From NCBI GenBank assembly GCA_016795155.1, contig JAEUIE010000022.1, positions 62,001-126,000 of the forward strand: a stretch of DNA of 64,000 bases. The letters run 5' to 3'. The position numbers were made by a program, and so were the translations under genes. The stretch is from Planctomycetia bacterium (GTDB lineage: Bacteria > Planctomycetota > Planctomycetia > Gemmatales > HRBIN36). Below, one piece after another: positions 39,930 to 63,005 of the stretch; within the stretch, counting starts at the first letter, position 1; every line of letters begins with the position of its first letter. The notes beneath the pieces are model-generated. The model saw nothing but the letters and a program-made list of their open reading frames with translations, ran no database searches and had not been told where the DNA came from.

Positions 39930-41081
39930 ATGCGTACCATCCTGGCCGGGGTGCTCGCCCTGTGCTGGTGCGGACTTATTTCTGCACAGACTGGTCAATC
40001 TAACAATGCGAAAGCGCGAGCCGATCGGTTGGCGGCCATCAAGGCGGAAGTTGCCCGGGTTTCTGCCGAAGGCCGCAAGAAGATCGAACAGATTCAGGAT
40101 GCCAGCGAGAAGCGGGCGGCTGAGCAAAAGCTGTCTCGGATGATTGTTAGTGAACTGCAACCCAGGCTGGCTGGGCTGGCGCTGGCACTGGCCAGGGAAA
40201 ATCCCAAGGATGATGTCGGGCTGGAAGCGTTGGTCTATGCTGTCTCGAAGAATGGCGGGAATAAAGCTGTTCAAGACGAAGCACGCCGGTTGATTATCCA
40301 GTTACATCTGAAAAATCCCAAGATCGAGGAAGCGCTGCCCAATGTAGCACGCCGTGATCGTGATTATGATGAAGCCCTTCTGAAGAGTGTGCTGGCCCAG
40401 AACCCTTCCAGGAGCGTGAAAGGAACAGTTTCGTTCCTTCTGGCCAAAAGCCTCAAGGCCCAATCCGAAAGCGTCAAGATAAGAGATGCCGACATCGAGA
40501 CGAAGATGAAGCAGGCGATTGCAGCGTTTGAGAAGGTGGCTGCGGAATATAGCGAAGTGACACTCAAAGGGATGGGAATGAGTGGGAACGCGGCTGTGCT
40601 GGCGAACCGGGAAATCGATTTGATTAAGAATTCGGCCATCGGCAAGGTGGTACAGGAAATAAGCGGGGAAGACCTGGATGGTGTGCCATTCAAAATCAGT
40701 GATTACCGGGGCAAGGTGATCCTGCTTGATTTCTGGGGGCATTGGTGAGGGCCTTGCCGGGCCATGTTCCCTCACGAGCGGTCGCTTGTGAAACGCCTGA
40801 GAAACTACCCTTTCGCCCTGATTGGCGTTAACAGTGATAGGGATCGAGAAGAGATCAAGATCAAGAACTTACAGGAACAAATCACCTGGCGCTCGTTTTG
40901 GAATGGAGCGCAAGGAACTCGTGGCCCCATTTCTACATCGTGGGAGGTGCGTGCATGGCCCACATTGTATTTGATCGATCACAAAGGCGTGCTTCGCCGG
41001 AAGTTTGAGGGCAATCCCGGGGATGCTGAACTGGATCGATTGATTGATGAACTGGTGGTGAAAGCGATGAGGAACCGGTAA
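39930..41081 (+). CDS. Predicted selenoprotein: secreted TlpA/thioredoxin-like protein with UGA (Sec) in the redox motif
   Basis: A 383-residue protein if TGA at 40746-40748 (codon 273) is read through. Residues 1-20 are a signal peptide (MRTILAGVLALCWCGLISAQ), 25-235 a helical region of unknown function, and 238-383 a TlpA/redoxin-type thioredoxin domain: GVPFKISDYRGKVILLDFWG, then HW-[TGA]-GPCRAMFPHERSLVKRL, FALIGVNSDRDR, RAWPTLYLIDHKGVLRRKFEG. The TGA replaces exactly the first Cys of WCxPC, giving UxxC. The downstream 110 codons remain fully protein-like, and a SECIS-like hairpin follows. The alternative, a C-to-A nonsense mutation or read error, would give a truncated 272-residue protein lacking the redox site. 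Selenocysteine genes were not seen in the window. Confidence 0.8.
40772..40791 (+). promoter_or_regulatory. Putative bacterial SECIS hairpin
   Basis: An 8-bp stem pairs 40772-40779 with 40784-40791 (one G-U pair) around the loop GGUC at 40780-40783. Thirty-one nucleotides lie between the TGA and the loop. Bacterial SECIS elements have a small apical loop with G in its first two positions about 16-37 nt after the UGA, and the E. coli fdhF element also presents GGUC in its loop. The hairpin lies inside the coding sequence as expected for bacteria. SelB binding is inferred. Confidence 0.7.
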
Positions 41082-45441: not shown

Positions 45442-47463
45442 ATGGCAACGCGAGATAACTCGCCTGACGATAACGGAACAGATCGCAAACGCCCACCATT
45501 GATTCTCAACGGTCCCTGGTGGATACTGATTGTCGTTACCCTGGCATTGTTTGTCTTTCTGCTGATGCGCGAACAGTACCTGGGCAACACACGCATTCCT
45601 TATAGTGAGTTCAAATTGCAACTCTCCCGAGGCAATGTCAAGTTCGTCAGGATCGGGGCAACTGTTATCCGTGGTGAACTGCGCGACTGGAAAGTATTGC
45701 CGGAAGATAATCGTAAAGGCAGAAGAGATTCAGACAACAGCTTTACTACCCTGCGAACGGAAGACAAGGAACTGAGTGCTCAGTTGGATAAAGCACGTTT
45801 GAATGGGTTGGACTATTACGATTACGAAGCTGATTCTTCGGGTACCATCACTACGCTGCTCGTGTATCTGGCGCCCATACTCATCCTGATCGCCCTGTTC
45901 ATGTTCATTCTGCCCCGTATGCGTGATCCGATGGGCGGAGGCTTCATTTCCAGCTACATCAAAAGCCCTGCTCGCAAGTATGAAAAGGGTAAAACCCGCG
46001 TAACGTTCGATGATGTCGCAGGGATGGAAAATGCAAAAGCTGAACTCCAGGAAGTAGTCGATTTCCTCAAGAGTCCGGAGAAGTTCCACAAACTCGGTGG
46101 TCAGATACCCAAAGGTGTATTGCTGATTGGTCCGCCAGGAACCGGCAAAACATTGATTGCCCGTGCGGTAGCTGGTGAAGCTGGTGTGCCTTTCTACAGC
46201 ATCAGCGGTTCTGAGTTTATTCAGATGTTTGTAGGCGTAGGCGCCAGCCGGGTGCGTGATCTCTTCAAGACGGCACGTGAGAACTCTCCCTGCATCCTCT
46301 TTGTTGATGAAATTGATGCAGTAGGGCGGGTTCGTGGTGCTGGTCTGGGTGGCGGACACGATGAACGCGAGCAGACTCTCAATCAGATACTCACCGAAAT
46401 GGATGGATTCTCTCCCACCGAATCGGTCATCGTGCTGGCTGCTACGAATCGACCCGATGTATTAGACCCTGCCTTGTTGCGTCCCGGCCGTTTCGACCGC
46501 CACGTCACTATAGACCGGCCAACCTGGCAGGGCCGGTTGGCCATTCTCAAAGTGCATACCCGCGATAAGCCTCTCGCTGCCGATGTCAATCTGGAAGCCA
46601 TTGCTCGTGCGAGCATCGGTATGACTGGTGCCGATCTCCGTAACCTGGCGAACGAAGCTGCGCTCAATGCCACTCGCGCCAAGAGAAACAAGATCACCAC
46701 CCGTGACTTTACCGATGCAGCAGATCGTGTTGCATTAGGCGCCAAGCGGGAAGAAGTGCTCAAGGAAAGCGATAAGTATCGCACTGCCATTCACGAAGCT
46801 GGGCATGCTCTGTGCGGTTGGCTGGAACCCAAGTCCGACCCGCTCCACAAAGTCACGATCATTCCGCGTGGCAGGGCACTGGGAGTAACACAATTCCGTC
46901 CAGAAGACGACAAACTGGAACATACCGAACCACAATTGAAGGCTCAGCTGGTGATGGCCATGGGTGGCCGGGCAGCCGATAAGCTCATTTTCCATGAAGC
47001 ATCTTCCGGTGCTGCTATGGATTTGAAGCAGGCATCCCGTATTGCACGCCTCATGGTGACACAATTCGGCATGAGCGATAAGCTTGGCCCAGTACATTAT
47101 CGTATCGGCGAAGAACATGTCTTCCTGGGTAAGGAAATTCAGGAGGCTCGTGACTTCAGCGAAGGCACCATGCAGCTGATTGATGAAGAAGTGCGACGTA
47201 TTGTCCGCGAGGCTGAAGCCAAAGCAATTGAACATCTCACAACTCACCGCAAGAAACTCGATCTGCTGGCTGAAGCATTGTTGAAGCGTGAGGAACTCAG
47301 CAAGGAAGAAGTGGACTTACTGTTGAATGCAGAATCCCTGGATGTGCTGCCTCCAATTATCGTGGAGGATACCAAGCCAGCGACAACTGCTCCGCCTAAA
47401 GTGGAAGAAAAAACTGCACCCGCTGATGTGCCTGGAACCCTTCGTCCCTACCCGGCAGTCTAA
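45442..47463 (+). CDS. ftsH: ATP-dependent zinc metalloprotease FtsH
   Basis: Membrane-bound AAA+ protease for quality control of membrane and regulatory proteins. About 673 residues from ATG 45442 (a TTG at 45421 is also in frame). Two N-terminal helices lie at about 25-43 and 140-160 with a small periplasmic domain between. The AAA domain has GPPGTGKT at about 230-237, [10 protein letters not shown] and the second region of homology [11 protein letters not shown]. The zinc protease site is HEAGH at 451-455 with the third ligand Asp in the segment [16 protein letters not shown]. The C-terminal tail is Pro/Ala/Lys-rich. A palindrome follows the stop. Confidence 0.97.
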
Positions 47464-62048: not shown

Positions 62049-63005
62049 TCAACGCTGTTCAGTGTGTCCACCAAATTGTGCCCGCATGGCAGAAAGCAGT
62101 TTGTTGCCAAAGTGATCATCCTGCCTGGATTCAAAGCGATTGAAGAGGGCATGAGCCAGGCCCGTCAACGGCACGCCATGTTCAATCGCTGTTTGCACGG
62201 TCCATCGGCCTTCACCCGAATCAGGCACTTTGCCGACAAACCCTTCCAGATTGGGACGTTCGGCCAGCGATCGTGCAATGAGATCCAGCAGCCAGGAACT
62301 GACGACACTGCCTCGCCGCCAAACCTCAGCAACCTCAGCCAGGTTGAAGTGGTAGAGCTGATCCTTCTGCATGGCGTGCATCAATTCAAAACCTTCGGCA
62401 TACGCCTGCATCAAGCCATATTCGATGCCATTGTGAACCATTTTGACAAAGTGCCCCGCGCCGTTGGGGCCACAATGCAGATAGCCCAGATCAGCGCTGG
62501 TTGCCTCTTTCCGAGCAGCGGTTGCTGGTATATTTCCGTGACCTGGTGCCAGGGAACGAAACACCGGATCGAGATGCTTGACTGCCTCGGTTGGCCCGCC
62601 AATCATCAGGCAATATCCCCGCTCCAACCCCCAGATCCCGCCGCTGGTGCCCACATCGAGATAGTGAATTCCTGATTGACTGAGTTTTTTAGCACGACGA
62701 ATATCATCGTTGAAGTTGGTGTTGCCACCATCAATAATCATGTCGCCCGGCAGCAACAGTGCCTGGAGTTCTGCAATGGCATTTTCAGTAATCTCGCCTG
62801 CAGGCAGCATGATCCACACTGCTCGAGGTGCACTGAGCTTTTGCACCAGTTCTGTGAGCGAAGCCGCTGGCGTTGCCCCTTCATGAGCCAGTTGCTCAAC
62901 TGACGCAGCCTGGGTATCAAACACCACGCAGTGATGCTTATCACGCAGCAGGCGGCGAACCATGTTGCCACCCATGCGGCCCAGGCCAATCATTCCCAGT
63001 TGCAT
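62049..63005 (-). CDS. gnd: 6-phosphogluconate dehydrogenase, decarboxylating (short form)
   Basis: Oxidises and decarboxylates 6-phosphogluconate to ribulose 5-phosphate. A 318-residue member of the short (YqeC/Gnd-like) class; the long class has about 470 residues. It has the Rossmann motif MQLGMIGLGRMGGNMV, substrate motif LDVGTSGGIWGLERGYCLMIGG, and GPNGAGHFVKMVHNGIEYG with catalytic Lys and Asn. It is nine bases from both neighbours, tal and rpe, forming a tight pentose phosphate operon. Confidence 0.94.
   Translation of the reverse strand: MQLGMIGLGRMGGNMVRRLLRDKHHCVVFDTQAASVEQLAHEGATPAASLTELVQKLSAPRAVWIMLPAGEITENAIAELQALLLPGDMIIDGGNTNFNDDIRRAKKLSQSGIHYLDVGTSGGIWGLERGYCLMIGGPTEAVKHLDPVFRSLAPGHGNIPATAARKEATSADLGYLHCGPNGAGHFVKMVHNGIEYGLMQAYAEGFELMHAMQKDQLYHFNLAEVAEVWRRGSVVSSWLLDLIARSLAERPNLEGFVGKVPDSGEGRWTVQTAIEHGVPLTGLAHALFNRFESRQDDHFGNKLLSAMRAQFGGHTEQR

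Follow-up and report, generated by a model that had tools for sequence, protein, structure and literature searches.

In enzymes of the thioredoxin fold, selenocysteine (Sec) at the first position of the CxxC motif attacks, and resolution falls to the second Cys. Among AhpC-TSA and Redoxin proteins, selenoproteins with a UxxC motif, including UxxU cases, have already been catalogued (PMC13188914, PMC9312934; ocean survey PMC2398784), and for the bacterial SECIS element (bSECIS) the rules give a loop of 3–9 nt with G in the first two loop positions, a stem of 4–16 bp, a spacing of 16–37 nt and an MFE at or below -7.5 (PMC13188914). Among planctomycetes, the text of PMC4807772 describes Sec machinery and selenoproteins in P1 and P2 and sel genes in Gemmata and Isosphaera.

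The gene and its predicted protein

The window, the whole stretch of 64,000 nucleotides of planctomycete DNA analysed here, harbours at 39930–41081 (+) a reading frame that, when read through, contains exactly one in-frame TGA, at residue 273 (40746–40748), and ends with a TAA at 41079–41081. Translated with UGA as Sec it gives 383 aa, and as homologous frames share the TGA column it is taken to be a complete selenoprotein gene. An earlier note on this DNA had given the same coordinates for gene and TGA, which the translation showed to be exact. The residues flanking the TGA are DFWGHW-U-GPCRAMFPHERSLVKR (HW-U-GPCRAM), placing it at the first position of the WCxPC motif of TlpA/ResA-type proteins and giving WUGPC; translation together with the alignment of homologues assigns Sec273 to the first position of UGPC and the resolving Cys276 of the UxxC motif to 40755–40757 (+). 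That the TGA stands at the attacking Cys of CxxC, as had been proposed, agrees with this alignment, in which it falls in the Cys column of the homologues.

The thioredoxin domain is completed by 110 codons 3' of the TGA, and the earlier claim of such a continuation in the same frame is borne out by Pfam matches that span the TGA, all above cut-off: AhpC-TSA (residues 237–357), Redoxin (241–364), Thioredoxin_8 (261–353) and Thioredoxin. When comparing with the nearest homologue (L034, 71% aa identity) the differences after the TGA are distributed as 20, 15 and 48 over codon positions 1, 2 and 3, a skew indicating that this part is under protein-level selection and translated in the same frame. 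A decayed C-terminal half, which would have spoken against a selenoprotein, was looked for among the homologues and the region was instead found to be conserved, with changes biased towards third positions. TGA is otherwise a normal stop in the window, as had been stated, terminating 18 of the 49 ORFs of at least 200 aa, and a general reassignment of TGA was rejected on account of these ordinary stops. Among the 27 TGA-ended window ORFs of at least 150 aa two further ones are open for more than 100 codons past the stop; the extension at 62051 is explained by a distinct ORF of 222 aa lying in that frame, and that at 45732 gives a translation in which no domain could be recognised by eye.

By eye, residues 1–19 (MRTILAGVLALCWCGLISA, 39930–39986, +) form a typical signal-peptide sequence, with a helix at residues 2–13 in the AlphaFold2 model and hydrophobic N-termini in most of the listed homologues, and this hydrophobic N-terminus suggests export. 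It is followed by a putative helical-repeat (TPR-like) domain, residues 20–229 (39987–40616, +), which when modelled alone in AlphaFold2 reached a mean pLDDT of 92.8. The best solved-structure neighbours of this domain according to VIA-align, E. coli BamD (Z 10.6) and the TPR of LGN (Z 9.9), are only middling and with Foldseek the same residues matched nothing at E ≤ 0.001, so that the label TPR-like is tentative and the likeness to BamD and TPR may be mere resemblance. Residues 234–383 (40629–41078, +) are predicted to form a TlpA/ResA-type thioredoxin-fold domain, according to Pfam, to the AlphaFold2 model made with 34 aligned homologues (mean pLDDT 92.7) and to the match between model residues 238–380 and ResA of B. 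subtilis (Z 22.2, rmsd 1.4, 137 aligned); the same residues also match TlpA (Z 16.6) and CcmG. Pro344 of a WPT sequence (40959–40961, +) is invariant among the homologues and is presumably at the cis-Pro position conserved in thioredoxin folds, an assignment of position made from column conservation.

When going through the ORF list of the window by eye, no redox partner or operon naming a substrate was found near the gene; judging from the same reading by eye, the neighbours look like a TruD-like protein, a membrane protease of the CPBP type, an ORF resembling REP-type transposases and, on the other strand, a YgfZ-like ORF.

Sec machinery and the hairpin downstream of the UGA

The earlier note had proposed a search of the host genome (5.28 Mb, 68 contigs, 97% complete) for selA, selB, selC (tRNA-Sec) and selD, and this revealed all four above curated cut-offs: tRNA-Sec on contig 5 with 70.7 bits (gathering score 47), selB with 401.9 bits, selA, which adjoins selB, with 564.3 bits and selD with 365.5 bits. 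The selD gene (L032, C12:77743–78672, - strand) has an in-frame TGA of its own in the glycine-rich active-site loop CAGUAGK together with a candidate hairpin, CGCAGGUACUGCG, unlike the one of the window family. The tRNA-Sec gene (C5:90415–90508) is located ~0.9 kb upstream of L002 (C5:91428–92456), one of the Sec paralogues described below.

At 40773–40790 (+) the gene contains a bacterial SECIS-type hairpin, CACGAGC-GGUC-GCUUGUG, with a stem of 7 bp and the apical loop GGUC at 40780–40783. The UGA and the loop are 31 nt apart, with the first base of GGUC at +32, and the MFE is -8.4 kcal/mol, values which all fall within the bSECIS rules of PMC13188914. The typical hairpin of the family is CACGAGC-GGUC-GCUCGUG, 25–42 nt past the TGA, and a stem with at least six of the seven pairs together with a GGTC loop was found in 47/47 TGA genes but in 0/31 Cys genes. 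Likewise, an MFE of -7.5 was reached by 37 of 38 Sec hairpins as compared with none of 11 Cys genes.

The hairpin region encodes HERSLV, for which nearly all TGA genes use the codons CAC GAG CGG TCG CTY GTN, and the TGA genes departing from this set still pair at six or seven positions. In a subset of 38 Sec genes CAC, CGG and TCG were each found in 38/38 cases and GAG in 37/37, while the background frequency across these genes is 0.68 for CAC, 0.18 for CGG, 0.25 for TCG and 0.47 for GAG, although these sequences are related and hence do not represent independent events. Synonymous variation is almost absent within the hairpin whereas codons a few positions outside it vary freely. Two compensatory changes were seen, G-C to C-G in L161 and the outer C-G to G-C in L166, and the covariation is limited (the observed score was reached by 30 of 500 shuffles) because the hairpin hardly varies. 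A covariance model of the hairpin, built from 21 genes, gave low E-values in the host genome only at the four paralogues, meaning that the hairpins used by selD and by a DipZ-like Sec candidate must be different ones; an Rfam search of the window gave nothing at gathering thresholds. Hairpin and loop are kept in two degenerate domains, SxxS (L156) and GxxW (L180), and the GGUC loop also in the Cys gene L182, which looks like a remnant of lost Sec use.

Paralogues, relatives and Sec/Cys alternation

A protein search of the host genome revealed three paralogues with exactly one TGA in the same column, L002 and L003 with WUGPC and L004 with WUPPC, and including the window gene the genome would hold at least four such Sec genes. 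A distant thioredoxin-like gene in the same genome (L009, C55:49936–50280, - strand) has a TGA at its first Cys (GUINC) and the candidate hairpin UCCCUGGUACAGGGA. Relatives at E ≤ 1e-25 were found in 179 of the 398 genomes of the class, and among the matches listed many contain one in-frame TGA and some two. When the active sites of 82 domains were read out, 40 were UxxC, 7 UxxU, 31 CxxC and 4 degenerate, i.e. the active-site column holds TGA in 47 and Cys in 31 of the domains, and in the homologues read it alternates between TGA and Cys and is never Trp. The alternation of Cys and Sec that had been suggested as a check was thereby recovered, and in a tree of the domains 17 changes of Sec label are needed, at least three of them forced by starred branches; for this tree the segment spanning active site and hairpin had been masked, its columns are few, many of its forks are open, and its counts cannot separate gain from loss of Sec. 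With 98% support, L144, a Sec gene, groups as sister to the Cys gene L147. Within the taxonomic family of the window, WUGPC occurs in one genome (L034), and in another three the only forms are those with Cys. The Cys forms L035 and L036 carry the same N-terminal region as the window protein, and the fusion is therefore not peculiar to the Sec forms.

The gene selB was identified in 33/34 genomes with a TGA form versus 28/40 without a listed one (Fisher p 0.002), where the latter group is defined from the matches listed only and the p value is indicative only, since related genomes are not independent. Within the window's family selB is lacking in the three genomes with Cys forms only (G002, G005 and G006) and present in both genomes with Sec forms, and in another two genomes selB occurs without a close homologue. 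The genome G367 (95% complete, 740 contigs) contains a UxxU gene (L171, G367:C428) with an intact hairpin (6/7 pairs, GGUC loop) but gave no selB match, either because a contig is missing or because the machinery has been lost.

Several variants were observed among the relatives. The seven UxxU genes (L164, L168, L169, L170, L171, L163 and L198), with TGA in place of both active-site Cys codons, form a clade with support 100 and have one hairpin within SECIS distance of both TGAs. The same redoxin domain is joined to Ser/Thr protein kinase-like domains in L005 and L006 of the host genome, which have a degenerate Cys pair (SPDC, DPHS), and in L038 and L042 of relatives, which have CPHC. In L156 (G263:C269) the whole protein is tandemly duplicated in one frame, and it is the second copy that is SxxS with the SECIS hairpin kept, while L135 and L136 consist of an N-terminal Sec domain and a C-terminal helical-repeat region of ~500–600 aa (HEAT-like by eye). 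A scan of genome contigs gave mostly distant proteins, probably because its sole active-site pattern demands a Cys codon, together with one Sec gene (L043, JACQWK010000491.1), 57% identical and with the same hairpin, on a contig labelled Verrucomicrobia, either by horizontal transfer or by mis-binning. No relatives were found in a scan of viral contigs.

Interpretation and comparison with known systems

A single base separates TGA from TGC or TGT and the host genome is a multi-contig assembly, and the TGA might accordingly be a nonsense mutation or a misread TGC in a gene that is dead or encodes an ordinary Cys protein. However, the TGA recurs at one column across four paralogues and a total of 47 domains, all of which share the hairpin, the frame after the TGA is under protein-level selection and Sec machinery is present in the host genome. 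This recurrence, in three host paralogues besides the window gene and in dozens of homologues elsewhere, makes a sequencing error very unlikely and goes against the misread TGC that the earlier note had raised; on the strength of paralogues and hairpin, pseudogene and sequencing error were both rejected, with only a marginal probability left to them. Readthrough of stops does exist in bacteria and a shortened product would, according to the model, be a foldable secreted helical domain, so that regulated termination giving a free helical domain, or readthrough with Trp or Cys instead of Sec, can be envisaged. Such an explanation is nevertheless extremely improbable when considering that the TGA sits exactly at the nucleophilic Cys column, where Cys and never Trp takes its place in the homologues read, that the SECIS hairpin tracks the TGA throughout and that the sel genes are present.

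Our preferred reading, with a probability of about 0.95, is that the product of the window gene is a single secreted selenoprotein in which UGA specifies Sec, with a TPR-like and a TlpA/ResA-type thioredoxin domain, and that it most likely acts as a reductase of the cell envelope. The sel machinery, the recurrence of the TGA and the distribution of the hairpin all support the selenoprotein proposed from the sequence earlier. SelB with Sec-tRNA-Sec would bind the mRNA hairpin at 40773–40790 and the complex would decode the UGA at 40746–40748 as Sec, after which the protein would be exported, the signal peptide cleaved and the mature protein folded into the TPR-like helical domain followed by the thioredoxin domain with its Sec-Gly-Pro-Cys redox centre. 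The helical domain would bind partners, Sec273 would attack and Cys276 would resolve the mixed selenosulfide, a division of roles that makes the protein most likely a thiol:disulfide, or possibly peroxide, reductase of the cell envelope; we infer this function, its reductive direction and any substrate from the predicted fold.

A true selenoprotein could also be mainly a peroxidase or a substrate-specific reductase (e.g. of methionine sulfoxide or Se/As species), an alternative about function alone, which agrees with Sec at the TGA. The additional matches to AhpC-TSA and Redoxin and the weak matches to GSHPx in 15 of 34 homologue members point in the direction of a peroxidase, and the TPR-like domain suggests specific partners. 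The UxxC motif and the best fold match, to the thiol reductases ResA/TlpA/CcmG, differ from the TxxC/U arrangement of peroxiredoxins and no operon partner indicating a substrate is found near the gene, and we regard this alternative as rather unlikely.

For the family as a whole, we lean slightly towards a class-wide and largely uncatalogued expansion of exported TlpA-like selenoproteins, with several paralogues in each genome, repeated switching between Sec and Cys, a derived UxxU clade and a single 18-nt hairpin, near-invariant, by which HERSLV is fixed in the Sec forms only, from which it would follow that the SECIS element and not the protein constrains this segment. Annotation pipelines would render such genes as shortened proteins or split ORFs and this layer of envelope redox chemistry is therefore probably under-counted in these bacteria. 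With dozens of close Sec and Cys forms, and SECIS present or absent in step, the family constitutes a natural experiment in which one can ask what advantage Sec has over Cys when the fold is the same, how frequent gains and losses of Sec are and in what way an RNA signal in a coding region shapes the protein sequence, and the hairpin CACGAGCGGTCGCTYGTN offers a simple search tag for further members.

In a literature search covering openly readable main texts, no paper on this family in planctomycetes was found, nor were the class-wide expansion, the near-invariant coding SECIS and the UxxU subclade found in the searchable literature. As for the novelty suggested in the earlier note, the kind of protein is not new, UxxC redoxin/Prx-like selenoproteins being a known class (PMC13188914, PMC9312934, PMC2398784). 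The selenoproteins of P1 and P2 resemble the present case in the presence of Sec machinery and selenoproteins in planctomycetes; the text of PMC4807772 names formate dehydrogenase and formylmethanofuran dehydrogenase, and overlap with the list in its table S9 is possible. In NCBIfam the window protein is below every cut-off compared, including those of ResA (NF002854, 59.8 of 170 bits), TlpA (NF047696, 53.1 of 230 bits) and the ResA-like selenoprotein model NF041054 (ResA-like WAxxUGC, 28 bits against 300), which is similar in being ResA-like with a Sec-containing motif in its name but has UGC where the window protein has UxxC (WUGPC).

The features that mark a bacterial selenoprotein, an in-frame UGA at a redox Cys column, SelA, SelB, SelD and tRNA-Sec and a bSECIS hairpin, are all found here. 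When compared by description with the Prx-like UxxC/UxxU selenoproteins (PF00578; PMC13188914, PMC9312934) the AhpC/TSA-type fold, the attacking Sec, the occasional UxxU and the widespread Cys homologues are shared, whereas a TPR-like domain at the N-terminus and a fixed HERSLV/SECIS segment are additional features of the window lineage. With the Redoxin UxxC selenoproteins (PF08534) and Prx-like 3 (PMC13188914, PMC2398784) it has the Redoxin-type domain and UxxC in common, the window protein passing the PF08534 cut-off, and by domain and motif, the only levels compared, it belongs to the UxxC Prx-like/redoxin class (PF00578, PF08534). ResA, TlpA and CcmG (DsbE) are alike in fold, in the position of WCxPC, in the cis-Pro position and in predicted export, and in this broad sense, with its fold, WUxPC site and P344, the window protein is of the TlpA/ResA type, differing from them by Sec in place of the first Cys and by its extra helical domain.
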